From Antitrichia curtipendula (lineage: Eukaryota > Streptophyta > Bryopsida > Hypnales > Leucodontaceae), in NCBI GenBank assembly GCA_951230915.1, contig OX579637.1, positions 12,214,001 to 12,278,000 of the forward strand: a stretch of 64,000 bases of DNA, written 5' to 3'. A program made the position numbers and the translations under genes. Each line of letters starts with the position of its first letter. The first letter of the stretch is position 1. Under the pieces are notes generated by a model. It was given only the letters and a program-made list of their open reading frames with translations. It was not told the DNA's origin and did not search any database. Shown here piece by piece: positions 17,875-38,672 of the stretch.

Positions 17875-20800
17875 GACATGGAACTATCCTCACTATCAGA
17901 AGTTTGACCGTGTGATTCTAATGCCTGATCATCTATAAAATGTAGAACCCAAGGATTCACGAATCGGGCCCTTGAAGTTGACCGTGGTTGTTCTGCAATA
18001 AAATCCTGGGATAAAGCCTTTGTATACGGAGGGAGAACAAAGGATTTTGGTGGGCTCGGGAAAAAAAGTGGATGAGCAAAAAAAGATATAGTCTTCGCGG
18101 AACTCTCTTCTTGGCCTTGCCTACAAAAATCAGTAAACAACATGTTAGAAGACCAAAAGTCAGGACAAAGAAATATATCTAAATCATGGAGCTTACAAGC
18201 CGACTTACTTACTAAACTGGAGTGTCTTATGCACATTTTGGATGACAACTTCCTGTCATCCCTATTTCCAAGGTCAAGCTCAAAGATTTCCAGCTTCACC
18301 TCAAGGACCGCAACTTTTCGGAGTTCCGGAGCAATAAGGGCATCAAAGATGTCCTTATCTTCCTCAAAAGCCAGGATATGACGTCGCTTAGAACAGCAAG
18401 CTTGGATGGTGGAACCTATGGAACAAGAAATTGACAATCAAGTATACATTCCCAAGGTAAATGTAGAATGCGGTTTAGAATATCAGTGTAAATGTTAGAA
18501 TCAAACCTGTGGCCGCCGTACAGTCAACAATGACGTCCCCTGCTATAGTCGTGGCCTCAACAGGCATCTGCATGAACTCACAACCCTTTTTCCGATGACC
18601 ACGCCAAGACACGTCACTGTTCATTGTCACATCCTCTTTAAGAACCAAATTCCAAAGGATGTCGTCCATAGCAAGGTTCACTCCCACCTTGTCCTGGGAC
18701 GAAACAAATTGAAAGGGGAAGTCTGACCTTGTCTTCGGCCCAAACTTTCTTACAAGTAGCAAGATGGAAAACCGTTGACTCTGCATTAACAATGATGTCA
18801 ATATCCCAGACACGAATGCAAAATTCATTCATATGCTTTCAAGTGAATTTAACAAAAAATTACCATTTTCTTTGGGTCGGCGACTGATGTCAAGTACAAA
18901 TGATTAATGCCAAAATATGTCTCCAATATGCAAAAACCATATTCTTGGCAGCATCCAAGAATGTAGCTTTGGTGTGTAGGAGACAACACGGGATAAATAA
19001 AGAAAAGGGCACCATTGTTATGGAAGTATTGATGCGTAAAATCAAAGACAGAAACCAAATAGTCGGACTTGAAGTCGTTCTACTTTGGGATAGGAGCAGG
19101 TACTGATGAGATAGTAGGAACGTGGGATCCCTCAGGCACATCAACAAACATGAAGTTCACAATTGCCTTTGTTCCACTGACTCCGTCAAAGAAGCGGTCC
19201 TTGTCAATAGAATGCTGCATTAAACGTAGAATTGAAGACTAAATTAGAGCATTACATTTATCATGAATTGTGAAGATCCTCTAAATATTTTAATAGCAAT
19301 GGATGTATCATGTGAGTGTAATGTTTTATATCAAAATTGATCCCAGTCTAGTTGAACAATTCAAGAATTTGCAATAAGGTGGTGAAGGAATTACCATGAC
19401 TAAGAAGGCCTCAACGTCCTGGAAGGCCTTCGATTCCATCTTAAGACCTCCCAGTGCCATGTTCAATATGCACTTGTCAATGTAAAGCATGGGATTCACA
19501 TTCTTAGCTGTTGGCGTCATTCCCTGTACCATGCGCTCCTAAGTAAGAACACTATATTCATTAAAATGAGAGTTTTCCAATGAAATGAGATTCTTTTTTC
19601 CACAATATGAGAATAGCAAGAGGCAATTGTATCATAAACAAAGAGGAATGACTTGTTTGTAACAATAAGAAAAGCAATGCAATGTCATGCAAAATAGGTT
19701 TTCTATTGAAATATTTTGATATATCATGCAGTAATTGCAATATGCAACACAATGAGTGACAAATACTCATTAAATAATGATGTATTGGACTAATACATTG
19801 CAGATTGGACATTTGAAGAAGCATTGCCTACCGTTACACTCCTAGAAGCAAAATATCTCATCTCCATAGTCTGTGTTACACACTGCAAATAAATTGCTTT
19901 AGAAGACGACGCCATGGTGACAGAACAATGAAGTGGATGCTAAGCTTCTGACCTAGATCTAAGTACAAAAATGATAGAAACAACTACCCCACAGTCTGAT
20001 TCAGCACTCTTCCTAATGGCACTTGAGACATAGCTGTTTTCTAGTGCTCCCTACAGGAGTGCTTATAGTGGAACCTAGGTTAGTTTGTCTCCATAATTTC
20101 CTTGTCCACATTCATGTCAAAGCTTGACATCCACTTCCTTCTTCCATTACAATGGCTTCCTCTTCCAAAGCTTCTATTTGCAGGACTAGCACAGACTATG
20201 AAGATTCAATACTTTGTCTATCCGGTTTGTAATATTTGAACAGGTTTGCATTGTTCTCAATCTAAATATGAGCCTTTGCGACATAATACTTCAGAACATG
20301 AAATGTATTCTTTGCTCCCTGATATGCTAGAATGGTGTCTATAATCCAAAATTAGGAGGTCCTTAATACATCCCCTTCATAAACATTTTCAAATGATAGT
20401 GAACCTCTCTTTTCGTTGTTATATCTCTCTCCTCCGTTTTTAAAAATTTTGCATCCCCGAAAGGTATACTAAAAATGTATGTAGCTGCCGTGAGCGTGAT
20501 TCATTCCAGTATTGAGTTTTTCAAAGTAACTGCACAATGCTATTTTGTACGTATAGATTTGGAACCTACAATATGAACAGATACTACATGTGTGATTTAC
20601 TCTTCAACATCTCCAAGGCCTTTCGAATTTCAGGTCATCGACTGTAACCATTATCACACTTCTTGTAATCTTGTAATGCTTGTCTCCTCTGCAGTTGTAT
20701 AAACTTTTGGTCCCATACATCCACAATTGGCAGTTTGCATCGACTTGGGGGTAATCCATCATGCATCTTTGTCTTCCACACACCGAAAGATCTCAGACGT

Positions 20801-20940
20801 TGTGTTGGCAGGGGTGGTGGATGAGAATGGCCAAGAAGTATTTTACTGCGCACTTCTTCGAACACCACTGCCTCTATGACAGGCAAGGTTGTTTTTCTCA
20901 CCACCAAAGTCATAGAGCTTTCTTTCTGGCACTCTGTCGG
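17875..20940 (-). pseudogene. DNA N4/N6-methylase-like gene (beta-class motif order), decayed
   Basis: Five exons join in phase with GT-AG introns: 19882-19832, 19538-19395, 19214-18864, 18780-18507 and 18415-18213. A last exon near 18120-17875 ends with an acidic Ser tail (SDSEDSSMSAL). Upstream coding runs lie at 20913-20600 (GHSHPPPLPTQRLRSFGVW) and 20345-20140 (YQGAKNTFHVLKYYVAKAH). Exon 19214-18864 holds VNFMFVDVPEGS at the place of the catalytic DPPY-type motif, then GALFFIYPVLSPTHQSYILG, like the strand that follows it in methylases. The next junction builds a motif I-like VIVDCTAATGSTIQAC followed by HILAFEEDKDIF. Catalytic motif before the SAM-binding motif is the beta-class order. 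DVPE is not a normal catalytic tetrad, and a TAG sits at 19082-19080, so the gene is probably inactive. It lies just downstream of the ParB-like gene on the same strand. Confidence 0.6.
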
Positions 20941-21350
20941 AGGCAGATGGCGACATTTGTGACCCCCCCACTAGAGTGGGCCGTAGAGGAGAAGGGGAGC
21001 ATGATTTGGACAAATGCAGAGTTCCACTTGGCGAACTGTCCACCACACCGTCCTCCACAGGATTTTAGTGAGAAGTCCATCGTGGAATTTGCTGTTGCAG
21101 CGGAACACAAGAAGTTCCTCGTGCTCAAGATTGCGTTTTGGATGTACTCCAAGAAGGAATCAACCGATGCTGCGCAAGTTAGACTTCTATTTCAAATTGG
21201 AGATGGCGATTTGCATACGACCTGAAACGGAAAGCCAAATGCAAAACTCATGTCAAAAGAAGCACAGTTAGAAGAACATGTCTAGAGCTCTCTGCAAAAA
21301 AAAGAGCCATTATTTTGGGATGCGTAAAGTTTAGATGAATTAGATTGAAG

Positions 21351-24300
21351 GGGTCAATTTGACCGATAGAAACCTGCAAGCATTCGAGTCAACCAAGAAA
21401 CATTATAGAAGAGGTCGACTCAACCTAGAATGTCTTAGAAAAGGTTGACCCGACCTACAATACGCATACAAGCCGTGAACTGAACATAAAGGACCCACAA
21501 ATGAGGTCGATCCGACCTAAACCTCACAAACTAAGAATGTGAAGTAATAAACACGAGCAAACTTATGATGAAGAAGCATTTCCGTTTTATTCATATGAAC
21601 AATATATTACAAAAAACTGAAGAGCAAAAAATTCATAAACTATGCACAGTTCAGGTCGACACAAGCTAAATTGCATTGCCAATGATGAAGTCCAATCCCT
21701 AGCGTGGATCTAGTATAGCTAATCTGGATTGATAAAAAAGAAAACTCGTTGGCCTATCTCAAATTCAACAACAGTCGAGCTGCTTCCATCAGTCGGTTAT
21801 ACTCTCGACGACTTCGTTCCTTGCAGAGCATCCGCCGTCCCATCTTCCCTGAGCTATTCTCCCTGAACAACTTCAATCCTTCATCTCAAGCAGCGTGAAG
21901 GCGCCTAAACCAGGGAAGGAGGATGTCCAAGAGAAACGTGTCCTTCAGACCATTTCCCCTCTTCGACCAAGTGTTAGGGAGAATGACATTCTCCGTCTTG
22001 TTCATAATGTGCTTACAAGGGTTGTCATCCACTATGATGGTATTCTCTGACGTGAAATTCCCTCGTGAGCCATTGAACAAAGTACTCAAGTTTTTAAGGA
22101 ACAGGTCCTTGTTTGTATTGGGCTCTTTGAAAGTTGTGATCTTTCCAGAACCATCCCTGCACTTCAATGTTGTGCAGGACTCTTGCCCGAGTACAAGATA
22201 GGGCATTTCTATACCATCGAAAAGATGTTTACAAACACCTTCAGTGTTGAACATTTTCATGGAGCTCCACACTAAGATGACGGCAATCTTTGCTAACTCA
22301 CTCAAGAACTGCGAGCAATTGGGCCTGACATAAACTTCTTTCTTTCCCACGATAGCGAAAACTGTGGCAAAGTGTCTGCGTGAGGATTCGCCTACGTGAC
22401 TGTACCATCCTTTGGTTTTTATTTCTTCAGACACACATAAAATCCCATTCAGGTGCAGAACAATGTTGAGCCACCTCACGGCCACCTTGGACCTCAATGG
22501 ATGTTTGACCTCATCCGACATCCCTCCACGAGAACAAGGAGAATTCAATTCCTGTTTCCAAACGGATAAATGTGCAGCCAGTTACTACCCTGAATTGACA
22601 CATTTTCGAACTCGCGCGAAATGATATAGTAAATACTAAAGACATGGCAACAAAGACAGTGCATGTATGACATACCTTCTTCTCGCGATCGGATTTAGTT
22701 GCAGCTCGAACGTCTTCCTGCACCTCGACGACGGGTTCTGCAACTTTGACTACCATGACATTGGCGTCCAAAAATGATAAGTCATCATCCACGACGTCTT
22801 CTTGTACAATAGAAGCAATCTCACGCTCTAAAATCACAGAATCTGCTTGCGTTGTAGGCACAAATTCTTCCACGGGAACGTCATCAGAAGACACAGGGAG
22901 TTGATTGTGCGACGACTAATGTTTAGGTGCAGAAGGAACAACATCAACATTAACAATGCCTACAATTCATGAATTCACAAAAAAATAATCCATAAGAATC
23001 CGATATATTAAATTTTCCAATGGTAGGCACTAGAATACATAATTTTGAAAATTTTGAAAATTTTGAACTCTGTGGTTCTGTCTATTGTAAGTTCACATTC
23101 AGAAAAATGTTTTTGCTTCATGAATATGCACAACTGAGTCCAATCTACCATTCAAATTAGCTCGAGTCGACCTGAACTATACAAACGACATCAAGTAATC
23201 AACCTGCAAGGGCATCAGCACACGGCGTCTCCACCATGCCAACTTTTGGCACATCAATGTCAGTCGCCACCTGCGAAGCACTAGCAATCGCAACGTTGAT
23301 CTCTGGAGGTGGCGGGGGGATGTTCGGCACTTGGTCTCTAGGAGGAAGAGGCTGAGGCGCGACCACAGAAGGAGCAACTGTTGGCACGCCAACAACTAGA
23401 AGAGAGACGGCGCTAGCAGACAGAGGAGGAGGCATGACAGAATTAGGAGCAGGAGGAACATTCAATGCAGACCGAATCGACTTTGCCAAACTCAACTCCC
23501 TTATATTCAATGAACCCGAGGCCTGACCCAGCAGCAACAACTAAGGAGCAACTTGGGCTAACAAAACTGCCGCGAGTGGCAGAGCACCTCTGTTGCTATT
23601 CACAATAGCGTCGTAGGTGTTGTCAATCTTCGTCGAAAGTGCCAATATACAATTCATCATGTGACCCTGTGCTAGGCGTGCATCTTCATGTTCGTTGCCC
23701 GATCCTGTAACCTCTCCATTCTGAGCTCGTTGATCTCTGCGCTCATGGCAGTCAACTCGTCATCGTGTCTCCTCCTCTTTCCCGTTACCCTCCGAGTTGT
23801 GGAGCACGGCGGCGTGCTGGACGACTGCATCGGAATGGGATGCAACTCCTCTAGTTGCCCAAACAATGCAAAGGACCCCCTAATACTGTGAGAGAGCTGC
23901 ATGGGGGTCAGCTGTACGTCCTATAGATCATCAAGGCCATGGTCGAATTCCTCTTCATCTTCATCCGAAGACAAATCTACAGGATCCCCGTGAGATGGAC
24001 CAACTTGAAAAGATGGTTTGCCTTGGAAAAATTGAGACATTGGCAAATCCTATGCCCACTTTCTTTTCTTCTTTGATGTCGCGGGTGTCGCAGGACCTCC
24101 AGCCTTCCAACGGTACACTTCTTCATCCACAAAGTACTCCTTCAGAAGGAAATCACTCTTGTCTAGTGATTTCCCAAGTTTGGCAATAGCTGTTCAGGGA
24201 TCGGACTCGTCGAAGGTACCAACAACAGAAACATCTAGATCCATCATCTGTAGCACAATCAAGACACAGTCAACTACACAGACAAACATGTTGATTGACA

Positions 24301-27300
24301 TTCAGGTCAAGTCAGTCTAAAACATGACGATGGAATAATGAACATCTACATGCAATGCCTACTCAATTAGGCCAGACCGACCCTATCCATGATTATACAT
24401 TGCATTACAAAATCTGGGAACGATATTTGTTGACTTAGGTTGAGTTGACCTATTCATCCGTGTATGATCAACACATTCCACAAGAGATGTTGAATAAAGA
24501 GAATCCACGTTTAGGTCAATTCGACCTGAAAAAGAACTCACCATCGCGGCACATGTAAACTTCGAACGCGCAAATACTGACATTACGCTTCTAGCACCAA
24601 TGGCAAATCTTCTGAGGATATTCAGGTAGAACTCCATTTAGAGCTCTATGTTGTGAATCCGGTACTTCAACTCATTATAAGCTCGAGGCTTCTTGAAGAC
24701 CTCTATGTCAGGGGCTCGATATGTAGGCTTTGGAGTCATGATGACAGCATTGTCCGGGTTTTGCAAGATCGTGAGATAGACCTTCTTAGTTGCCTTGCTG
24801 TTGCTAGCGGAATAGTCTCCCATCCGCTCAACCTTTGCGGGCCAGTAGTCCACGAAGTCCATCTTAAAATCCTTGAGGACTTTGTTTGTTTGCACGTAGT
24901 GTAGAGTTTGGTTCTGCTCCACTAAATCGGTGCAGATAAAGAGCCACGCCGGGATCTCTTCCAATCAAGGTTGCTTGGACTCTTGGAAGGACTTCATAGC
25001 CGAGAAGAAGTACGGCATCAGTGGCATGCAGTTGCCCCTGTTGAGAACCACTAGAGCATATCGGAAGTTGAGGATTCCAAATTTGATTTCCGAAGCCGTC
25101 CTCTCGGTCCATGCTCTAGACGGCCATGGTGAATTCTTGTCAGCTGCAATATTATATGGCCTGTATTGTGCAACCACAATGTGCTTGACAAAACTTGAGC
25201 GGCGCTCAAGGAAGACTCGGAAGAACTCGGCAGCGTAGGGCGATATTTCTGCAACCTTCTTGTTCTTGGCCTTGGACTGCTTCGCCTCCTTGAAATAGTC
25301 CTCTCCTTGTTGCTCGAGAAGGACATTCATTGTCGCGCTAGTGATGCAATGACTCTTCTTGAACTCTCTCCATTTATCCACATTCACTTTGTTGAATGCG
25401 TTGATGAGGCCCAAGTTCGGGTCGAGATGGTTGAGCTCCTTCTTCACCAGATACTTCCTCTTGCGCTGCTCCACCCACTCCTTGTGAGTGTAGCAACTCT
25501 CAAGCACTGAAGCCACCTGCTTCATTGTCACCTTTGGATGCTTCAGTGTTCGCTTCTCCCCTTCACTTGTTCGTGTTTGCTTCAGGATGTGCATCGCGAG
25601 CTTCTTCATGTCGTTGTAGGAGAGGTTCCCCATCCACTTGAAGAATTCGTGGGTCAAGTTTTCAGACTCTGACTTCCACCCAGTCTTCTTGTTAAATGGT
25701 TGGAGGGTCTTTGGATCAATGAGCTCACCGTGAGCATTATTTGATATCACTTTGCTCCACAAATTGAAGACTTCATCAGGTGCGGTAATGATCTTCAACT
25801 CATTTGTTATCTTGAGCTTCTCCTCGGCGTCCTTACCTCGTGAGGCTTTTTGAGACTTCACAACGTCGAGCATTGCAAAGCAAGCATTCATTGCCTTCAC
25901 GAACTCCTGCAAAATCCATCCAGAGGGGGAGCCATAAACATACGTTTAGGTCGACCCGACCTAACCACATAACTCATAGACTTTGCAGAATTGCGTAACA
26001 CAATCTTGTTTAGGTTGACTCAACCTGAATCGAACAAGCAGATTCAAGCTTGACACATAAAATGGACATCACAATATCCACACAATATTTGGAGTATTCA
26101 CTTAATAAATTTATACCTTGAATTTAACCAGGTTGTTCATGTCCTCGGCTTTACGCCTTGTATTCAACATCGTACCCGCCGGGGAGGGATCCTTCGGGTT
26201 CCTTGGCCTTCCCATTTTCTCCCAAACACTTTGTGCGCCGAGGATGTTAGTTGACCACGAAGGCTTCATGGCAACAAAATGGTTTACCTTGTTGTAGTAC
26301 GCGGATATGGACCTCAATTTCTTGTTGTCATTCAACCAGGCAACGTAGCAATCCCACTCCCTAAAGTGTTTGAGAATGGACTCATCCAATCTCATTTGCA
26401 CCATCATCTTGCTGGCCGTCACACTGTGCTGGCCGTTAATCAGGTAGAATTGCCCTCCTTTGATTTCGTTCCATGACTCAGGTTTGGGTTTCTCAGGTTG
26501 GTTCACGGGCATGACGCATAGAGCCTGCTTGGTGGACTTGTCGGGCATTTGCACAAAGAATTGCATGACGTCCGAAGCGAGACGATCCTCATGGCTTCAG
26601 ATGTTCATATCCGCTTGTGATGAGATGAGTTGCTCAATCGGGATTGACTTCTTCTCGTCGATCGCAAACATGTAGGCATCAGTGCAAGTGGCCCAGTAGT
26701 TTTTGTAGGCCTCCGCAGATAATTTGTAGTCGTGATCACGTTGAAAGTCGTGAGCCTCTGGAATGTTAGTAACCGCCAAAGCAAAACTAGTCTCTCCCAG
26801 CACTGCTTCCTCAGGCTTTTGAGTCTTTGATATCCTCCCGGCACTCGAAGCAAGGTAATCTCTTGCCGGTGGTGGAGGTGGTGTCCTTGACTGTTGATTT
26901 CTCCTAGCACCATGGCTGTTCTGCATACCTGGAGTTCCCATGGAAGCTTGTCCTTCGCCTCCCTGAGCCGGCATCTCCTGAGACACTGTTTGCACGACCA
27001 TGTCCCTCTTTGTGGACTCAAGCTTTGCCTTCAGAACCTCGAAGGTCACGAATAGTGACCTCAGACAATTGCACAGCGTCTTGCCAATGATTGTGCTTCC
27101 GGCTAGAGTTTGGAAGAAGTTGTTGTCAATCTTCTTCTCCAACTCAAGAATTTTGGTCTTGTACTCGGTGGGTTCGAGTGCCTCTAGGAACGGTGTGATG
27201 TTGAATGGAATTTTTGAGGAGTCCAAGACGATAGTGAAATGGCACTGTTCTTCTTCCTTCTTTCCTGTTTGTGCTGTCACACAGTGTATTTTGATGATGC

Positions 27301-28295
27301 TCCCTTTGTCGTGGGCGATCTCTTTGATTTTCTCGTCGAAGAAGACGGAATAGTATGTGTTGTTGTCTTTGTACTTGTATAAGAAGCATATCAAGTTTTT
27401 GAATGGTATCATCTTGAGGCTCCAGTTGTCCATCTTCTCAGGGTTTAAGAACTCCCAATACTCTCCATCGTTGTCGATGTCGTCTCCATCCTCCTCATCT
27501 TGAGCGACATTGCATCTCTTGAAGAGCAACTCAACTCTTGGTATTTGTTCTTCCATCCTGTCAACGCGGACGAACATATCGGTGTTTTAGTGGTTTAGCT
27601 TGAGTCGAGCTAAATCGGACAGAGCTGAAGTTGAGCTTGCCATCAGTTGTTCGGACTCAACATGGGGAACTTCATTCAAGTCGAGTCGATCTAAATGTCA
27701 CCTACAGATTATGGTCTGTCCCTATGTGTGTGATCTTGTTATCTTGTGGAATTAGCTTGATTCGATTTAATCGATATTGGCAGGTATTCTTACCGCTCGT
27801 CTTTCTTGTCTCAATGGAGTGGTTCAGTTTTCTACATTCTCTGACTAGATTACAGTCACTCTTTAGGTCAGATCAACCTAATTCGATGGGAGCACTTGGT
27901 TATGGCTTTCCTTTTTTTTCTTGTCTGAATTTGTGCTTTTCTACGCCATTCGGTTGAATGTGGGTTACCGTTTAGGTCGGGTCGATCTGACTAAATGGGT
28001 TTCATTGTCATGGCTTTTGTTCTGGTATTTCTCTTAAAGGAGTTTAGTGTTTCTTCTATGCTCTCTGCCTGTGTTTGGTTTACCATTTAGGTCGACTCGA
28101 CCTGAATGGGATACTGCCCTCGGTGCTCCATCATGGACATAGTTGTTTCATCTGCATTTTGGTGTTCTTGAGGTCGAGTTCTATCATTTAGCTCGACTCG
28201 ACCTAAGTGGATCTTTCAAGCTTGAATCTTGTATACAGTGAAAAGGGGTGTAGTCAACCTAAACTGGCATCGGCCTAAAGTGATCCCGACCTAAA
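21351..28295. repeat. About 20 dispersed copies of a 15-bp palindrome (AGGTCGANTCGACCT type)
   Basis: Clear or partial copies start near 21351, 21382, 21412, 21442, 21504, 21653, 23159, 24302, 24369, 24437, 24513, 25948, 26012, 27597, 27678, 27754, 27865, 27974, 28089, 28190, 28250 and 28275. The best is AGGTCGACTCGACCT at 28089. Typical variants are AGGTTGACTCAACCT (26012), AGGTCAATTCGACCT (24513) and AGGTCGACCCGACCT (25948). Most are preceded by TTT and followed by GAA or AAA, which extends the symmetry. All fall in introns, the 5' region or the 3' flank of the ParB-like gene. I found none in its exons and none elsewhere in the window. They read as protein-binding sites or transposon subterminal motifs rather than chance. 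Confidence 0.8.
21754..27557 (-). pseudogene. ParB-like domain / helical / proline-rich / FCP1-like HAD fusion gene, decayed
   Basis: ATG at 27557 opens MEEQIPRVELL, just after an AG acceptor. In one frame across a TGA (26599-26597) the protein reaches IPIEQLISSQADMN and then LINGQHSVTASK (26440-26408), matching the ParB/DGQHR-type [D/N]GQHxxxAxK motif. A phase-0 intron follows, then a long helical exon from about 25904. It is broken by TGA 24967-24965 and TAA 24640-24638 and ends near 24540. Then come an acidic and basic exon from 24250 with stops at 24196, 24052 and 23923, a coiled coil, and a proline-rich exon to 23199. Finally there is a HAD domain (22548-21754): VLHLNGIL, VYVRPNCSQFLSEL, ILVWSS and IIVDDNPCKH, as in NLI/FCP1-type phosphatases, with LLPWFRRL near the end. 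The nucleophile Asp is His (codon 22455-22453). Original reading may extend past TGA 21888-21886 to TAG at 21756-21754. That it is one gene rests on splice sites and strand. Confidence 0.55.
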
Positions 28296-28323
28296 ACTAC
28301 AAACCAAGTGAATTCAGGCTCAC

Positions 28324-28424
28324 CTTCGATGTCTTGGCAGGTTTCCGGATTTGGATGTAACTGAAGAATCTCCTCCTGGTTTTGTGAAATCGTAAAAATT
28401 TCTGAGCGCTGAGGGGTTGGACTC
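28324..28424 (-). other. Putative 5' non-coding exon of the ParB-like gene
   Basis: Minus strand shows an acceptor-like run (TTTTTTTTGGAG) and a good donor (GAAG followed by GTGAGCC at 28323). Joined to the AG before the ATG at 27557 it leaves the open frame starting at the next Met. The intron between them would hold nine or so of the palindromic sites. This is a prediction only. Confidence 0.3.
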
Positions 28425-28979
28425 CAAAAAAAACAAAAGTTCCATGCATTAACCAGAAGCAAAGTACATAATTAGTTAAACAAATTACAGCCTTCAGAAA
28501 ACTGGACGAAACATTCAAAGTCAGCGTTGTCGCGTGCTGATGAATACCAGTTGTGTTGAAAATCCTAATTCCAGACTAGCATTGGTTTAAAATCACAGTT
28601 GAATAGCATAAAATGTATTTATGCTCATGTCTACAATGACAAACATACTAGCAGGTTACAGAAAACAGAAACCTTGAAATTCAGGCCTAAACGCAGCCTG
28701 CAATGTTTGCCCACATTAGAATCCTAAACCACACTGCAATGTACTTCCAGAAAGTACTACACAAAAGTATGAAACTCAAATGCACTGCCCATACGAGCCA
28801 CACAAAGCAATTTTCAACCAAAATCCTAAAACCCTAGAGAGTGCAGAGGCATTGAGAAGAGCTTATGAAAATAAACAGTGCAATCAACACTATTTAGATC
28901 ACCTGAAGAAACATTGTAAGAAAAAATGTTGAACGCTTTAACATGGACAACATGGACAAGTAGAGATTAGAAAAGAACC
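28425..28979. other. Intergenic, nothing recognised
   Basis: AT-rich sequence with no convincing coding or repeat structure. It presumably includes the upstream region of the ParB-like gene. Confidence 0.35.
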
Positions 28980-29515
28980 GATGCAGACAATGTGCAGACA
29001 AGGTGTGCAGACAAAGTGCAGCAACGAAGCGCACAGGTAACACTAAACCCGAACTGAAAAACGAGAGTCCTCGCTCTCCACCCTCTACGCACTCACTGCT
29101 CCTCCACGAGGTGTACAGACAAGGTGCAGAATTGTACCAAGCAGCGCAGCGGCGATGCGCACAAGGGAACCCTAAACCCAAACTGAAAACGAGAGTGCTC
29201 ATTCTCCACCCTCCTTGCACTCATTACTCCTCCACCCTCCACGCAAACTGGAATATGAGAGTGTACAACCCAAAGTGACATACATTTAGATGTTCTTCAT
29301 TTGCGTAAAAAGAAATAAGAAAAAAAAAATTCACAACTTGCGTACCAGATCTAGGAGGGGTGCTGTGTCTAGCTTTCAGTAGAACGCAACAAGACACGAT
29401 CCTTTTGATTTCTCGAAGCTGTGTGGACAAATTTCGCGATTTGTCGGCGCGGTAAGTGCTCCGCCGAACTCTAAAACGCACTGACTCCACCCTCCACGCA
29501 CTCACTGCTCCTCTG
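28980..29515. repeat. Imperfect direct repeats with CTCCACCCTC(C/T)ACGCACTCACTGCTCC
   Basis: A segment containing AAACCCGAACTGAAAAACGA plus a CTCCACCCT run at 29044-29108 recurs at 29171-29240. Its last part recurs again at 29483-29515. Spacing of the first two is about 127 bases. The open frames through it are a by-product of the repeated composition. Confidence 0.5.
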
Positions 29516-29791
29516 CATCACCCAATGTGGCAAACAAGAAGAACGAGATTGTAAACTGCTACAAATCGCGCTACAATTCACGAACCAATGGGCCGCATCA
29601 GTCACTCACTCTTCTTCACTCCACTCAATCTTGTACACACCTTCTTTTGTGAAACACTCACTTTCCCTCTAGAAGGGAACAAACTCAACGACGAACAATA
29701 CAACGAGATGCAGAAGGGAACAAACATGCACAATGACGGTACAACGACGACAAACAACACAACATGAACAACACGCTGTGAGGGGAACCAG

Positions 29792-30172
29792 ATGGCTGTG
29801 CGGTCCACCACAGGGAGAGAAAAGACTCCCCAAACCGACACCGAGCCTTCTAGAGCTGATCGCCGTCAACCAGCATCAAGCCTGTATTTCAACCCGGACC
29901 TAGTTCCGGAGCTGATTGCCCCCCCCCCCTCCTTTCGGCCGAACCTAGTTCCAAACCTCTCATCCCTACCGACCCTGAAACGAACGTATTTTGAGCCTTT
30001 CAACTTTGTCGAGCCTCATATGAACCTAGTTGTCGAAGCAAATCCTACACCCCCCTATGCCAAGCCTAGTTCCGAGCACATAGAACTTTTGTCGCACCGT
30101 TTTCAAAGTTGTCCAAACCACTCTTTAACCTGCATTGCAAATGGAACTTCAAAGCTAAAGTCTAATTCTTGA
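29792..30172 (+). CDS. Possible small open reading frame, unsupported
   Basis: A 126-codon frame opens with ATG and reads a proline-rich protein (AVRSTTGREKTPQTD). The DNA carries degenerate CCTAGTTCCG(A)-type repeats and a poly-C run near 29920. Repeats and composition may alone explain the openness. No family recognised. Confidence 0.15.
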   Translation: MAVRSTTGREKTPQTDTEPSRADRRQPASSLYFNPDLVPELIAPPPSFRPNLVPNLSSLPTLKRTYFEPFNFVEPHMNLVVEANPTPPYAKPSSEHIELLSHRFQSCPNHSLTCIANGTSKLKSNS

Positions 30173-31870
30173 AAATCACAAAATACAGGTGTTAAACTGA
30201 CCAAAAAAATAGCACAGAGTAATTTAATCCATAAACAACTTACGTTGCAAACATTTTCCAGCCGATGAATAATATGAAACCTCTATGTACAGGACAGTAG
30301 GGCAACTATTGTTGCTAATAAATTTTCTATGAAAAGGGACAGTCTTTTAACGGATCAAGTAACATTCCTACGGATTCTCTATTTTACCATTCAAAGGGCT
30401 TCTTATAATATAGAATGTAAATGGTTGTTTTCATCTTCAATATTAAACATTCAAATCTTGTAGAATTTAAGTTGAATATACAAAATTTGGATCTAAAAAA
30501 AGCAAAACTTCACTTTCACTAAATCTTTTCAAGTCCAAATTTGATGCTTTTACATGATAATTTATTTAAATTAATTGATGATGGACTATTTTTAATTTGA
30601 GTTTACAATACTATACTACAAATTCACTTCTAGCATTCACTTTTGTATTCTTTTAAGCCAACAATTCACACTTTAATTAGTATAATAGATGATTTTGACC
30701 TTAAACCAATTTGTCCTTTAGTTGAAGAATTACTTGATTTTGTACTTCTTTAACATGCATACAAAATGAGCCATTCATATGAGAATTTTTAATTCTCATT
30801 AAAAATTGAAAACATTTACCCTTCTTGCAAATCTTCACCTATAAATGATGAACTATAGCCTATGATGAACTACAATAAACTTCACTCTAGTTGTATTAAT
30901 CTATAATTTACACTTTAAAACAAATGGATGGCTACTCTCTGTAATGACTACTACATTATACTTAAATAGAAAATAAAAAACAGGCTTACGATAATCCTGA
31001 CCACATGCATTTCTTACAATTCAGTATATTAGAAAGTCAATATTTATAATACACATAGATATTTCCTTAAGTTATACAATCCACACTATTTATAATTGTA
31101 TTTTATGAACTAAACCTTCCTTATTTGGATTATAATATGAAAACACTCCTAGTATGTTAAAAGATCGTTATCCTTTAGGAAATTATGTCTATATATTGGT
31201 GATTGATTTTGAATACAATGAACAGTAATTGCATTTTGTATTTAAAAAATCTTGCAATGGAAAAAAAATAAAATATTATTTTTTACAATTTTTGTACTCA
31301 CCCAAAAAAATGCAAAAGGTAGAAAGAAATATACATAGAAGTTGGAAATAGTTCCCACATTTTGAATCCATGGCCTATTCAAATAAATGCTATTTTCTTA
31401 CACCTACAAAGTGAATTAAAAAAATTAACAACTTTCTTGCAATAATTTACAAATTCCAACTATTAATGTCCATAGTCATGAAAAAAATATAGAATAGGTG
31501 GAAAATAATATACTAACACAAAAGTTGAAAGTAGTTACTATATTTAGAATCCCTAGCCATTCTATTTGAAAGCTTTTCTTTTACATTTAATTAGTGAATT
31601 CAAATATAAATAGACCCATCATAATAATTTACAAATTCCAGGTTTTAATCCTAGAAGTTGTCTAGAATTATAGAAAAGTTGGATACAAACTATTTTCCTA
31701 TAGTAGGTGGTTTTGTGGATTGATTGAATGATGCAATTAATATATAATTGGAATGATTTACAATAATTTTGTACTCAAATCCTACAAACAAATAAAAACG
31801 AGCCCAAATTCTTTCAAGTTCAATGTGTAAATTCAATGAATGCCCCTATTTGGCTAATATGAATAAGTAC

Positions 31871-32146
31871 TATGAAAGCTCAAAACAATGTAGTTTAAAA
31901 CAATGAAATAAAGGTTTTGTAGTAGTCATCTTTAAACTACTCAACTATTATAATTGAAATGTGAAGTCAATAGAAACTTCAAAAAACACATACGAATATT
32001 AAGTTCATATGGTTTGGAAAAAATAAGGCGCACAGAGTTTTGAACAAATATTTTGTTAATGTTCAAAAACTGTGGTCATTTAGAAACCATTTGAAGTATA
32101 TGAAAGCTCAAAACAATGTAGTTTAAAGATGACTACTACAAAACCT
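31871..32146. repeat. Direct plus inverted repeat pair
   Basis: TATGAAAGCTCAAAACAATG recurs directly at 31871 and about 32098. A 29-bp segment at 31912-31940 (starting AGGTTTTGTAGTAGTCATC) is found in inverted orientation at 32118-32146. The arrangement looks like the remains of a foldback element, with about 180 bases between the arms. Confidence 0.55.
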
Positions 32147-32226
32147 ACCATCATGCTATATTAGTTTACAAATGATGAAACATGTGCGAACACATGCATA
32201 ATTTTTTAATTTTGAGAATTTAATTT

Positions 32227-32695
32227 CTTGAGGGTATTTGCAACGTCTACAACTTTGTTGAAGTTGCTTTCAAAATGGAATTCTATGACATTTGGTGTAG
32301 GGAGCTATTAAAGTACAAGTCCACTTTTATTCCAAATTCTTTTAATGCACGTGAAGGTGGATTGAAATTACGCACAACTTAAATATTTTTGAGCATTCAA
32401 ATACTTGAGGGTATTTGCAACTTCTACAACTTTGTTGAAGTCACTTTCAAAATGGAATTCTATGACATTTGGTGTAGGGAGCCATTAAAATACAGGCCCA
32501 ATTTTATTCCAAATTCTTTAATGCACGTGAAGGTGGATTGAAATTACACACAAATTAAATATTTTTGAGCATTCAAATACTTGAGGGTATTTGCAACTTC
32601 TACAACTTTGTTGAAGTCGCTTTCAAAATGGAATTCTATGACATTTGGTGTAGGGAGCCATTAAAGTACATGCCCAATTTTATTCCAAATTAATC
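32227..32695. repeat. Three tandem copies of a 176-177-bp unit
   Basis: CTTGAGGGTATTTGCAAC starts at 32227, 32404 and 32580. The units are about 95% alike, and the third is cut off after TTTTATTCCAAATT near 32690. The high identity contrasts with the decayed surroundings, so the amplification is recent. Confidence 0.85.
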
Positions 32696-32999
32696 ATGTA
32701 ACAGCCTCCTCAGAGAAACAATCATAATGACTCCAGAATAATACCATATTCCAGATAAGTGATTAAAAAGTTCAAGTGAACTTCTTTCCAAAAGTACAAT
32801 CATGCAACTTCTTTCCAAATTTTTTTGACAAATATTATATTCAAATAGTTTTAAAAGTGACAAAGAATGACAAATTATATAAATCCAGAATGACTAACTA
32901 TATTAATAATTTTATATACCCAACACTTCAAAAAAGTCTTATACCGTGACATTTTGGGTTTTCGTTCTGACTATATTTTTGTGATGATTGATTGATTGT

Positions 33000-33570
33000 G
33001 GGGTATTGTTCTTGGAGTTTGTGGATTACTTAGTATGAGGGTTTCATTGTTTTTATAATTGTTGAATTGACTTTTGCAGTGCGAAGAAGTAATATTGGAA
33101 CAAAATGGCTACAGTCAGACCCTAAATGAGGGATGTATTTCCATCATGTGATTGTGTATATTTTTCTTCCAACTACTTAGCCTTATTTTGACGAGTGTAG
33201 AGACTAATACTTAGATGTTGAGGTGAAATAGTACGTCAAAGGGGTCCAATAATGCTCATTTCTTGAGTGTAAGAGAATAGCGTTGAAATGAAATGGCCAT
33301 GGACTCTAGTAAGTGTGCACTTGCCATGGAAGTAATTCCAACTTACATGCATTTTTTTCCCACACTTTTTGAGTTTTTCTAATAAGTAGTTGATTGTATT
33401 CATTGTTCTTGGATTTCGTGATTTACTGCGAGGTGTTTATTACTTTTATAATTTTTGAAACGACTTTTAAATTGCAAAGAAATAGCATTGGAATGAAATG
33501 GCCATGGACTCTAAACGAGGGATGTATTTCCAACTTGTGTGTATATTTTTTCCACCGGATTATAGAATAT
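33000..33570. repeat. Diverged direct repeat, offset about 390 bases
   Basis: The block at 33009-33170 (GTTCTTGGAGTTTGTGGATTAC through GAGGGATGTATTTCC) has a diverged copy at 33398-33555. A partial related segment (GAAATGAAATGGCCATGGAC) also occurs at 33275. It is non-coding. Confidence 0.5.
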
Positions 33571-34029
33571 GCTACTTTAATGTATGTGAAGAAGTTGTTG
33601 CTTCTTGCTTTAAATGTGAAAAATTTCTCCACAAGCATGCTATTTTATGACCTTGGGCCTACTTAACAAAATGAAAGCTATGTATTGTAGTTCCAACTCC
33701 ATCTTGAACTTTGAAAAAATCCCTAATATTGGATGTTTTATTATGATGTTTGAACTTAGGATGAATTTCAATGTGTACTTTTTCTAATTATAGAATGACA
33801 CGGAAATTGAGTTTACACCATAATGTTTCTCATCTTAATATACACATAGTGAAATTTTCAATATTTTTGAAAAAACTTCGTACAGGTGTGGGTTTTTTAA
33901 CATTTTCTTCAAAAATTCTCAAGAAAATCAATTTCCACAGAAGAATGGTATTTTTCTACCTAAAGTATAGTAGATATGTAAATTGAGTGACAAAAAATGA
34001 AGCTCGAAATCAATGTTCATGGGTCCATC

Positions 34030-34400
34030 ATCAGGGTTGACAGGACGTCCAGACGAATTTTGACATCCCTGGACGGGCCGTGTGACCGTCTAGTGGACGG
34101 TCGGATGGCCCGTCCGCGCGGAAGGCCCAACAGTCGAACAGGGCGTCAGGGAGCTCGCGGATGGCCCGACGGTCGGACAGGGCGTCGGGGAGCTCGCAGA
34201 CAGTCCCGCGGACGAGATCTTGCGGACGGGCCCTCGGGCGGACTGGGCGTCGGGCTCGCGGACGCGATCGTGCAAACGAGATTGCGCGGACGGATCGCGC
34301 GGACGGGATGTCCGCGCGATCCCGTCCGCACGATCTGCCTGTCCAATTTTAAGCCGTCCGATTCGCACGTACACGTCCGCATTGCCTGGTCCGCCTTCGG
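34030..34400. repeat. CpG-rich cluster of GGACGG/CCGTCC motifs, left
   Basis: More than fifteen GGACG, CGGACGG or CGTCC motifs lie in about 370 bases of GC-rich DNA inside an AT-rich region, with local palindromes such as CGCGCGGACGG near 34300. A sister cluster lies at 38820-39150 on the far side of two convergent genes. It could be a subterminal region of a transposon or a CpG-rich promoter. Confidence 0.55.
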
Positions 34401-34404
34401 ACGC

Positions 34405-34413
34405 CATAAATAG
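34405..34413 (+). promoter_or_regulatory. TATA-like box
   Basis: CATAAATAG sits at the edge of the CpG-rich cluster, about 275 bases before the ATG at 34688. The spacing allows a leader. It is a sequence match only. Confidence 0.3.
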
Positions 34414-34687
34414 CGCGGCGGACAGCTCATTCCTCACAATTGTTTCCCTTGCGGAGTGGGTGATCCAGTGCCTCTCAATGGCTCTGCGCGCCCTTTTTGT
34501 TTTGGTGCGTGATCGATTGTGCTCGGATACTAAATTGCACCAAATTCTTTTGGTGATTACTTGGTTTTGAAGGCCTTGTTAACAACTTCACCCCGTTTCA
34601 TTGGCAAGTGTCAAACATTTTGTTCAGTTGTTCTAAAGATTCATGTGAACTTCGTCATCAAATCATTTCATTTTAATCAAGGTTATC

Positions 34688-35785
34688 ATGCCTCGCAATA
34701 GTAGTTCAAGGTCCAGTAACAAAGGCAAATCCCAGGGCATGAACTGGGGAGATTGGGCAAATCCAATGTGTGTAGCTGAACCTGGATGGGAAGAAGAGCC
34801 CGAGAAGGTTTGGGATTGCACAATGTGCAAAAAGTACGTCAAAATGACGCACCTCTCCAAAATGTGGTCACAAGAAAGAACAGACAAGCAAGTTCGACGT
34901 TGGGAAAGACAAATTTCTACGTGCGAGAGCGAACACTTTGTGCACCAATACGAGGAAGTAACGCGGTGGGCTGAGCTGCCTAACTCCAAACCAAATGTCA
35001 TGAATTATTCCAACATGGCCATGGTTTGGGCAGAGATTGTACCCCACAAAGATGTAGACTGGCGCACAATTTACGGGAAAAATGTTGACAATATGAAGCT
35101 CACTGACGTTGTTATTTATACAAGTTGGACTCAACCGAGCGACTGTATGCGAATGTGGTCCAATCGAGGGTAGTTTGGATTTCCACCGATTGTATTGCCG
35201 GATGTTGAGGATGAATGGTCGGACGATGATGATGTAGACGACAATCCAGCACCCGTAACATTTACAGTGGGACATGAGCGTCAAGAAGCTCGGGAAGACA
35301 TCGAGTTCAATCAACAAATGCAAGAAGCTATGCGTAGAAGCATGGAAGATTGGGGTCAACAACACGGGCATGACAGGTCCTACCAACATGATCGTACTGC
35401 ATCTGGTTCACAAGATGGTCAAAGGGTCTTACACTACGCTAACGACCCCCGAGGTACTTATTACAATCCAGAAAAAAGCCATGGAACCACACATGATTTT
35501 GGATCTAGCCAAGGAGGCTCCCAATACTATTCCGGATCTACTACGGGTGGTTCATATGAGCGTCACACAGGCTCTCGTCATGTCGAACCAAGGCAAGGAA
35601 GGTCTCAACACCGTGATGTAGTTCCTCCTCCAACTTTTGGAGGTCCTTACTATGGAAATCCCAATCAAGGAGCTACGCCAAGCGACTATGGATGCACTTG
35701 GGGCGGAGGACCATATCTTGGCACTTATGGATCCGGTTCCACACCACCAAAACGTAGAGATGACATCCATTCAGATTCCGAGTAA
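34688..35785 (+). pseudogene. Zinc-finger / UIM-like / Gly-Tyr-Ser-rich protein, one in-frame stop
   Basis: ATG at 34688 starts a Ser-rich basic segment (PRNSSSRSSNKGKSQG), then a Trp-rich domain with a CxxC pair (VWDCTMCKKYV) and WAELPNSKPNVMNYSNM. A single TAG at 35171-35173 interrupts the frame, which stays open on both sides to 35785. After the stop come an acidic patch (DEWSDDDDVDDN) and a stretch matching the ubiquitin-interacting motif pattern, MQEAMRRSMED (about 35318-35350), with Ala and Ser in the expected places. A low-complexity tail follows, rich in Gly, Ser, Tyr and Gln (GSSQGGSQYYSGSTTGGS). The stop is one C-to-T change from CAG. The N-terminal domain is not recognised. The gene converges with the kinase-like gene, and both are flanked by CpG-rich clusters. 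Confidence 0.55.
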
Positions 35786-37115: not shown

Positions 37116-38672
37116 CTAATATGAGTGGCGGAAGTGTTCATCTGGAATAGGCCAGTTGTAATTATTGGTAAATCGATGGATGATTTCGGACAAGCTACCG
37201 CGAGAATCAATCACCGAATCACAAAGGTGCTCCAAGTAAAGGTGAAAAATCTTTGCCAAATCCTCATGGTTAAATCTTGTATGTCCTTCATTTTCCCGAT
37301 GTAAGCTCACATAGTCCGCCGACATGCAACCATTGTTGATGGCTCGAGCTATTCGACCAACCGCGTATTCCTCCAATTTACGTGATAAAATCGGTATCGT
37401 TGACACATCCGCATCTCTTCTATGCAAGTATGCAATAGAAGGGTCCACCCACCACCTCTTTTTCAAGGTCTCAGTCCGCTCACTCTTAGAGGTGAACGTG
37501 TACAAGGACTTCATTGGTTCATTACGTAAAGTAGTCGGGCCCCAATCGCAAACTCCAATATAAACACGTGACTCATCATCGGGAAAGTGACATATTACGT
37601 TGTCCAGTGAAAGATCATTGTGCAAATGTCTAGCGTTGTGCACTGCATTCATGAGGTGCACCAGTGCCCATGCAAGCTCTCTGCGCTTTTTCCTCCAATG
37701 ACCAAGAAAAAAAGCTTTGATCACCTCTTCCGGGGTCAGTTGAGAATAAGCCAACCAAATGCCAATGTTATCGAGATATTCCTTATCCATTTTTAACATT
37801 TGCCTCAATGTTCCGCCATTCCACCAATACGAGTACCCTTTGTTTTGCATTGCATGAACAACAGAAAACCGGATAACTTCATCATGTGGAATTCTCACTA
37901 CCATTGGCTCGTTTTGGTGTTCCAACCTTGCGAGCTGAGGTCGTAAGCGTTGTTGATGAGATACCTTTGCTGCGAACTCCCAAAATGTGGGTATCTCATG
38001 ACATCCTTCAATTTGGACCCTCTGAATTGTTGCGTATCCACCCCTCAAGATTTGATCATCTTGTGGATTCACCCTTGCTGTTTTTGGAAGCGCTAAGAGA
38101 TGTCGTTGCCCACGTTGCAACTCCACAAGTCCCTCATCACTATTCCACCAACCCATTAAACCTCGCCTATTTTGATTCTTTGCAAAAGGGGCACACTGGC
38201 AAACAAACAAGTCTACCCTCAAATTGACCTGTTCAAAAGTGCCATCACCTATGCGGTGTTGCTTCCCGTACTTCTCTAAGATCACCTTTGCATTCCACAA
38301 TGCATCATGGACCTTGTTCCTCAAAAATTGTTGAAAGCCCTTCCTCTCCATTTCATGAATCCAGTAGGGTACGTTTAAAGCATCCATGAACTTCTGTGCC
38401 ATATCTCCCTTGAATTTATCTGGGCACTCGTCTTCATACCTTGCATATTTGGTATACAACAACGTAGTGGTTTCCGACTCATAAAATTTGACAATGCACT
38501 CAATGAGAAATGCTTTGCAAGCGAGAGAGGGAGCGTCCATACTCGCCTCACTGTCCGGCTTCACTCGTTTGTCCTTCGCAGCCTTCTTTGGTCTCGGTAT
38601 CGTGATGAAATCACGTTTAGAAGTGCACTTGCAATTTCTAATCCACAAGGCATTATACGATTTGCCAGATGA
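37116..38672 (-). CDS. Protein-kinase-like protein, C-terminal kinase fold
   Basis: A 510-codon frame is uninterrupted, the longest intact one in the window. Counting from the TTG at 38648, the C-terminal half shows kinase landmarks in order. These are a Gly-rich loop (LRGGYATIQRV, about 201-211) and an ATP-binding Lys in FAAKV (K228). Then come a GGTLRQML helix and a catalytic loop HNDLSLDNV with D345 and N350. DWG replaces DFG (368-370), followed by RWWVDPS and EEYAVGRIARAI. Key residues are kept, so activity is possible. The N-terminal 200 residues (CKCTSKRDF, AFLIECIVKFYES) are not recognised. A TGA at 38675-38673 precedes the frame after a likely AG acceptor, and the first in-frame ATG is at 38540. 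The true start is therefore unsure. It is convergent with the UIM-like gene. Confidence 0.6.
   Translation of the reverse strand, partial: SSGKSYNALWIRNCKCTSKRDFITIPRPKKAAKDKRVKPDSEASMDAPSLACKAFLIECIVKFYESETTTLLYTKYARYEDECPDKFKGDMAQKFMDALNVPYWIHEMERKGFQQFLRNKVHDALWNAKVILEKYGKQHRIGDGTFEQVNLRVDLFVCQCAPFAKNQNRRGLMGWWNSDEGLVELQRGQRHLLALPKTARVNPQDDQILRGGYATIQRVQIEGCHEIPTFWEFAAKVSHQQRLRPQLARLEHQNEPMVVRIPHDEVIRFSVVHAMQNKGYSYWWNGGTLRQMLKMDKEYLDNIGIWLAYSQLTPEEVIKAFFLGHWRKKRRELAWALVHLMNAVHNARHLHNDLSLDNVICHFPDDESRVYIGVCDWGPTTLRNEPMKSLYTFTSKSERTETLKKRWWVDPSIAYLHRRDADVSTIPILSRKLEEYAVGRIARAINNGCMSADYVSLHRENEGHTRFNHEDLAKIFHLYLEHLCDSVIDSRGSLSEIIHRFTNNYNWPIPDEHFRHSY

Follow-up and report, generated by a model that had tools for sequence, protein, structure and literature searches.

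Dispersed palindromes in a moss DNA transposon as candidate recognition sites for its ParB-like accessory protein

Known systems and the moss element

Sequence-specific anti-silencing by way of co-evolving dispersed motifs is known from the VANDAL transposons. The sites of VANC21 lie in introns and in intergenic and terminal non-coding DNA and the motifs differ between related VANDALs (available part of PMC5735166), while VANC21 itself causes a loss of DNA methylation, which is restored by RNA-directed DNA methylation (available part of PMC10398659). Here, a stretch of 64,000 nucleotides from the moss Antitrichia curtipendula (hereafter the window; contig OX579637.1, positions 12,214,001 to 12,278,000 of the forward strand) was analysed, for which a preliminary description had reported roughly twenty palindromes confined to the introns and flanks of a ParB-like gene. 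The palindromes belong to a multicopy moss DNA transposon, and they are read here, by analogy with VANC and with a rough probability of 0.55, as dispersed recognition sites that would be read by the accessory protein of the element for the purpose of anti-silencing.

The likeness to VANDALs lies in the anatomy: an accessory gene stands beside the transposase gene, short motifs are dense in introns, upstream regions and terminal non-coding regions, the motif is concentrated in non-coding DNA (on the moss side, 8/190 sites in coding sequence against 68.2 expected), and it differs between families in step with the element (in the moss, as the A/B, D and F versions, with an exception at intron 3). 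VANC carries DUF1985 and DUF287 and has the 9-base motif YAGTATTAY in one orientation, whereas the moss motif is a palindrome of 19-21 bases; the moss element also differs in its protein, which would join ParB, methyltransferase and NIF parts, in its DUF7869 transposase and in its host, which is a moss and not Arabidopsis. Binding and demethylation have been demonstrated for VANC, whereas their moss counterparts would hold by analogy. Judged from sequence, the element appears VANC/VANDAL-like in anatomy and not a member by its protein or, according to Pfam, by its transposase.

N6/N4 methyltransferases fused to the ParB fold have been described, with phages as the more frequent source (available part of PMC12704722), and PMC5512222 (available part) cites a ParB-methylase of Bacillus that has nicking activity. 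The same joining of a ParB-CTPase fold to an N6/N4 methyltransferase is predicted for the moss protein, which differs from the ParB-methylases in its NIF fusion, its introns, its setting in a eukaryotic transposon and its altered catalytic motifs; the two best viral models (one annotated ParB/Sulfiredoxin, the other nameless) aligned over 628 and 735 columns, respectively, at a high root-mean-square deviation (21 and 27, respectively). TnpA of Spm/CACTA has a repeated short motif in subterminal position, whereas the motifs of the moss element are not subterminal and its ends are not CACTA ends (AACGTT in one complete copy). From Lanisha, which was reportedly described from moss, the element may differ, in that its transposase matches DUF7869 of Pfam and the ends of one copy read AACGTT and not CA..TG. 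Lanisha (Maumus et al. 2020, cited in PMC12730594) comprises EnSpm-like cut-and-paste DNA transposons, with an EnSpm-like transposase having C(2)C and H(3-4)H and with mostly CA..TG ends (available part of PMC12730594). Two further likenesses concern DNA modification: TnpA is an element-encoded protein linked to demethylation (available part of PMC10398659), and fungal DNA transposons carry a gene related to DNA modification, the TET/JBP dioxygenase, a remover of methylcytosine, for which the available part of PMC12730594 describes a demethylating enzyme and no motif array.

The transposon and its palindromes

Ten fetched copies (5 A and 5 B) were compared with the copy in the window, which belongs to subfamily A. 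The portion in the window (19548..34031, minus strand, by blastn similarity to the five other A copies) runs from the right terminus at 19548 to 34031, where the similarity stops and other sequence follows, the left (transposase) half being missing. The right terminal inverted repeat CTCTCATTTTAATGAATATAGTGTT (19548..19572, minus strand) is common to the A copies and occurs with small changes in B, and one complete B copy has the inverted partner at its left end. In the complete copy on C4, the left end AACGTTATATTCATTATTTTGAGAGG and the right end, which is the inverse of AACGTTATATTCATTAAAATGAGAGG, stand about 16.9 kb apart as 26-bp inverted ends reading AACGTT, with CTAT flanking each side; the element length and the 4-bp (CTAT) duplication rest on this single complete copy. 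Its left half contains an open frame of 932 residues, which is oriented away from the ParB-like gene, matches DUF7869 of Pfam (PF25273, E 1.3e-39) and is read, from its sequence, as the transposase of the element; named relatives come from Physcomitrium and Ceratodon, and most matches are nameless. A DUF7869 transposase and terminal inverted repeats, the features of a DUF7869-type DNA transposon, are therefore both present. Relatives of the accessory gene in the 400-Mb genome number at least 123 for exon 2 (47-100% identity) and at least 150 for the NIF exon.

In the 64-kb window, AGGTCGACTCGACCT at up to 3 mismatches gave 26 strand-wise matches, corresponding to 14 places, all within 21412-28204, as against a mean of 0.40 and a maximum of 4 in 100 shuffles. 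The palindromes first described are thus real and absent elsewhere in the window, but a total near twenty is reached only with a looser skeleton, which adds degenerate palindromes (e.g. at 24302, 27752 and 27863); the TTT/AAA shoulders noted at the same time are part of the consensus TTYAGGTCGANTCGACCTRAA (201 sites, A and B copies). Both of the described clusters exist, at sizes below the nine and six first counted. The 5' cluster (27597..28204; palindrome positions are given without strand) has seven palindromes (27597, 27678, 27754, 27865, 27974, 28089 and 28190; five at up to 3 mismatches and two looser), and the 3' cluster, past the stop codon (21412..21667), has four (21412, 21442, 21504 and 21653), in each case plus weak ones. 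Intron 1 has two (25946..26028; at 25948 and 26012), intron 2 has those at 24513 and 24437 and the degenerate ones at 24304 and 24367 (24302..24529), and intron 3 has one (23157..23175; at 23159); the short intron 4 of the accessory gene showed none. With the exons as mapped by splice signals and homology, none of the 14 palindromes overlapped an exon, as had been stated, but a looser scan (8.8 chance matches expected) placed one 2-mismatch palindrome (23469) inside exon 3.

Neighbouring palindromes of the 5' cluster (27597-28204) are 76-115 bases apart and two of them sit within 52-base repeats that are 71% alike, which suggests that the cluster grew by tandem duplication, a mode of growth also reported for VANC targets.

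Confinement to the ParB-like gene holds for the window copy, in which one gene only is surrounded because the transposase half is missing. On the transposase side, 5-6 extra sites were found in all five B copies and in three of the five other A copies (8/10 fetched), while none was seen within the fetched stretch of the remaining two A copies.

Across the genome, the 15-mer at up to 2 mismatches gave 1825 forward matches against 158 for the reversed control, the skeleton TYAGNNCGNNNCGNNCTRA gave 1723 against 39, and the F version TTAGCGCGNNNCGCGCTAA gave 582 against 0. A listed family copy was at most 10 kb away for 72 of the 100 exact A/B sites listed and for 43 of the 50 exact F sites listed, such zones covering 0.8% of the compared sequence (the expectation). 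With classes (A, B, F and other non-A/B) assigned by identity, the nearest listed copy was A or B for 69/72 A/B sites and F or other non-A/B for 41/43 F sites. The coding overlaps (8 of 190 sites, 68.2 being expected if uniform) were counted by ungapped tblastn over 11 copies including that of the window, and the p-value of this placement is not independent because the copies are related; seven of the eight were the intron-2 site at the splice donor, reached by alignment overrun, and one was a 3-mismatch exonic match. A gapped tblastn form of the exon test (27/190 in 'coding') was discarded as misleading, because matches crossed introns.

The palindromes of the subfamilies share one skeleton, with the half-sites TTAGGTCGA, TTAGGGCGG and TTAGCGCGA. 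In copy D (L043), the exon 2 of which is 49% identical to that of the window, no A/B-type 15-mer was found at the first scan and one weak match was given by a three-version scan; a search for any palindrome gave TTTAGGGCGGACCGCCCTAAA and similar palindromes, which occupied the corresponding positions in the 5' flank and in introns 1 and 2. Scanned across the genome at up to 2 mismatches, the D version occurred at 34 places against 0 for the control, of which 12 were at the D element, including all seven with one mismatch, and the other 22 were mostly F-like or A-like. Some of the D-element matches lie at the accessory gene, and others fall within 829.5-830.4 kb of C218, a stretch taken for the transposase side of that element. 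Further palindrome versions were obtained from the intron-1 stretches of ten diverse copies (401 bases each), and in nine of them the site matched TYAGNNCGNNNCGNNCTRA with 0-1 mismatch, none of 100 shuffles each being as good. Three versions were then counted in 12 copies (11 A/B and D): the A/B copies had 13-20 A/B-type sites each, no F-type site and one D-type site overall, and the D locus had nine D-type sites, one weak A/B-type site and no F-type site. The versions are nearly exclusive among the copies scanned.

The accessory gene and its predicted protein

The accessory gene lies on the minus strand. Exon 1 (26117..27556) encodes the N-terminal part and the ParB-CTPase-fold domain with an INGQHS motif, exon 2 (24542..25906) a helical region and the N6/N4 methyltransferase-fold region with altered motifs, exon 3 (23204..24247; by splice signals, the 3' border being a candidate) the region past the methyltransferase-like part, and exon 5 (21754..22589; the 5' border being a candidate) the NIF (FCP1/SCP-like phosphatase) domain with the stop codon at 21756; exon 4 (22676..22959) was bordered by splice signal. 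The gene in the window is damaged, with an in-frame stop in exon 1 and in-frame stops in exon 2.

The protein has about 1500 residues, for which a ParB-CTPase fold, an N6/N4 DNA-methyltransferase fold, a coiled coil and a NIF (FCP1-like) domain (Pfam PF03031, E 2.5e-14) are predicted; homologs with names come from mosses only, Physcomitrium among them. Both folds rest on a structure model, because searches of Pfam, PHROGs, NCBIfam and PDB sequences gave no ParB match and no significant methyltransferase match (best PRMT7, E 0.15). KorB, a bacterial ParB-family repressor, was among the fold matches. An initial model built on 17 sequences could not be used (predicted local distance difference test score (pLDDT) 36.7). 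The nucleotide-binding arginine motif of ParB is GxRR; at this place the window reads INGQHS, and NGQHS was found in 59/95 fetched homologs, the search pattern itself having required NGQHS. The helical region following the ParB part was modelled at low confidence. A catalytic motif IV of the DPPY/W type, in the form [DNS]PP[YWFH], occurred in none of the 28 sequences that a permissive pattern had selected, some of which are possibly exon-1 fragments. Its likely place reads D[F/L]R in 14 of 15 located proteins and DFW in the other (P0017), the pattern having demanded such a shape, and among genome copies D[F/L]R in 4/6, with N for D in 2/6 including the window. One scan of viral contigs with P0019, an exon-2 protein, brought up no viral relatives. 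In the window copy, the NIF domain (21886-22581) reads VLHLNG, as against DLNG in 10/10 homologs found.

Reader of the sites and rival explanations

In all, 123 hand-chosen sites from eight hand-chosen copies (A 3, B 2, D 1 and F 2) were compared, the F site between exon 2 and the NIF exon being counted as intron 3. Between subfamilies, sites that occupy equivalent locations differed by 5.5-7.2 mismatches (A and B by 3.8), and sites at different locations of one copy by 1.9-3.6 mismatches. The similarity within a copy is partly built in, since each subfamily's own consensus was used to gather the A, B and F sites and those of the D transposase side (the remaining D sites came from a de novo search). 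The half-site consensus was TTAGGTCGA at 6/6 location classes in A and TTAGGGCGG at 4/4 in D, the transposase side included. This main pattern is not easily explained by plain inheritance of introns; the scattered sites must have altered together, either through selection for a single reader or through copying from site to site.

An element-encoded reader that prefers the sites of its own subfamily fits best, and the ParB/methyltransferase/NIF protein is probably this reader; it is the better candidate because its own introns and 3' end hold sites and because VANC21 fills the matching role in VANDAL21. By the same analogy, anti-silencing is its likeliest purpose. The protein would bind the clusters at the start of its own gene and at that of the transposase gene, as well as the intronic and 3' sites, and when bound would keep host silencing off the non-coding DNA of its own family; with reader and sites changing together, each subfamily would serve mainly itself.

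Besides the built-in similarity, several points weigh against a reading by the accessory protein. In B, the half-site is not uniform (TTAGGTCGA on the transposase side, TCAGGTCGA in the other main classes), the intron-3 site holds a GAGCTRA half in one F copy as well as in A and B, and the tenth intron-1 site has 3 mismatches to the skeleton, which 16/100 shuffles equalled. Away from listed copies lay 28/100 A/B sites and 7/50 F sites, some of which (e.g. C2:53050692, which follows directly on a fetched A copy) probably belong to transposase sides. As to the protein, the structure model is that of a Physcomitrium homolog at a mean pLDDT of 62.4, no helix-turn-helix or other DNA-reading domain was identified in it, and the VANC domains (DUF1985 and DUF287) are absent from the seven Pfam families, NIF among them, found in 17 homologs. 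Linkage, moreover, cannot tell the reader, because the transposase, being in the same element, would co-diverge as well.

This last point bears on the rival in which the DUF7869 transposase, or a second transposase subunit, binds the palindromes for synapsis, excision or self-regulation, as TnpA does in Spm/CACTA. It is encoded by the same element, sites also lie on its 5' side and TnpA is tied to demethylation (available part of PMC10398659), but in the one complete copy no palindrome comes closer to the ends than 3.6 and 1.3 kb, and sites are also found in introns 1-3 and past the stop codon of the accessory gene, which leaves this rival unlikely. Subterminal transposase sites in particular are rejected on site position. 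The interpretation offered in the preliminary description is supported in part. The sites in introns 1-3 and past the stop codon would likewise be needless for ordinary autoregulatory operators, at which the accessory protein would repress or activate both element genes with no effect on silencing; this explanation, which gains from the clusters just upstream of both genes and from KorB among the fold matches, is also considered improbable.

Very little probability is given to a parS-like partition or spreading locus, as had been proposed at the outset, in which ParB clamps gated by CTP would be loaded onto the palindromes and then travel along the element; a partition function is not supported. 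The ParB-like fold and the palindromes invite it, but the carrier is a dispersed, high-copy transposon, NGQHS stands where ParB has GxRR, the protein has additional methyltransferase and NIF parts, and no ParA was noticed, no systematic search for ParA having been made. Still less is to be expected of a role of the sites at the RNA level, for instance as splicing signals of introns close to 5' splice sites: several intron sites do lie close behind the splice donor, but the same motif is found upstream of both genes and past the stop codon, and palindromes with a one-base centre would suit a DNA-bound dimer better than a hairpin.

A tentative elaboration of the reading by the accessory protein, itself held to be rather improbable, is that a phage-type ParB-methylase was captured and fused to the CTD-phosphatase-like NIF domain, with its decayed methyltransferase serving as the DNA reader, and that nucleotide-gated clamps load at the subfamily palindromes, spread and block silencing, perhaps through NIF acting on RNA polymerase II. 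VANC-like sequence-specific anti-silencing would then have arisen a second time, independently, and one genome would contain a series of co-evolved reader-site pairs. Should anti-silencing by the accessory protein hold, it would be a convergent case with an unrelated bacterial-type protein, by which the strategy would appear general, the subfamilies in one moss genome would form a natural protein-site series for recognition rules, and a mobile element of a eukaryote would be found to contain the ParB-CTPase fold. Since Physcomitrium has homologs and is easy to transform, the idea lends itself to a direct test. A literature search over titles and abstract openings, with most subscription papers and Repbase outside it, found nothing on a ParB/methyltransferase/NIF protein in a transposon or on the palindrome, and 'plant', 'transpos' and 'moss' are absent from the available main text of the 2025 survey of the ParB-CTPase fold (PMC12704722).

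Minor features of the element and the window

The intron-3 site seems to be one version (half-site TTAGCTCGA) across A, B and F despite their differing other sites, the F copies C1:24484695 and C1:3983700 having TTAGCTCGAGTCGAGCTAA there, and it perhaps has another reader. Upstream of the gene, a tandem repeat of 176 bp (32210..32691, without strand) is part of the element by copy comparison; at 176-178 bp it is of nucleosome length, and it is expanded to about 5 kb in copy A_C5_30 (L027, first 5 kb). CpG transitions made up 12/31 substitutions from the consensus in the window copy, whereas each of the other ten A/B copies had 1-10 of them among 23-32 substitutions; this would be expected if the dead window copy was methylated, and it weakly supports the proposed anti-silencing. 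Beyond the break at 34031, the window has other long open frames at 34090-35785, 37116-38672 and 60091-61146, one of which gave a weak kinase match below the cut-off, and a frame beside a B copy resembles these by eye.

The contig of the window (C5; 37.2 of 400.2 Mb, 9.3%) holds 81 of the 123 exon-2 copies listed, and several Ceratodon homologs of the accessory protein carry UG/VG locus tags, which we take to denote sex chromosomes; on these grounds, C5 may be a sex chromosome of Antitrichia curtipendula. Identical solitary skeleton sites, TTAGGGCGAATCGACCTAA or its complement at C1:8486372, 14120887, 15332748 and 20157473 and TCAGCGCGAACCGCGCTGA or its complement at C1:8434956, 23492494 and 24465392, perhaps sit in short non-autonomous relatives of the element.

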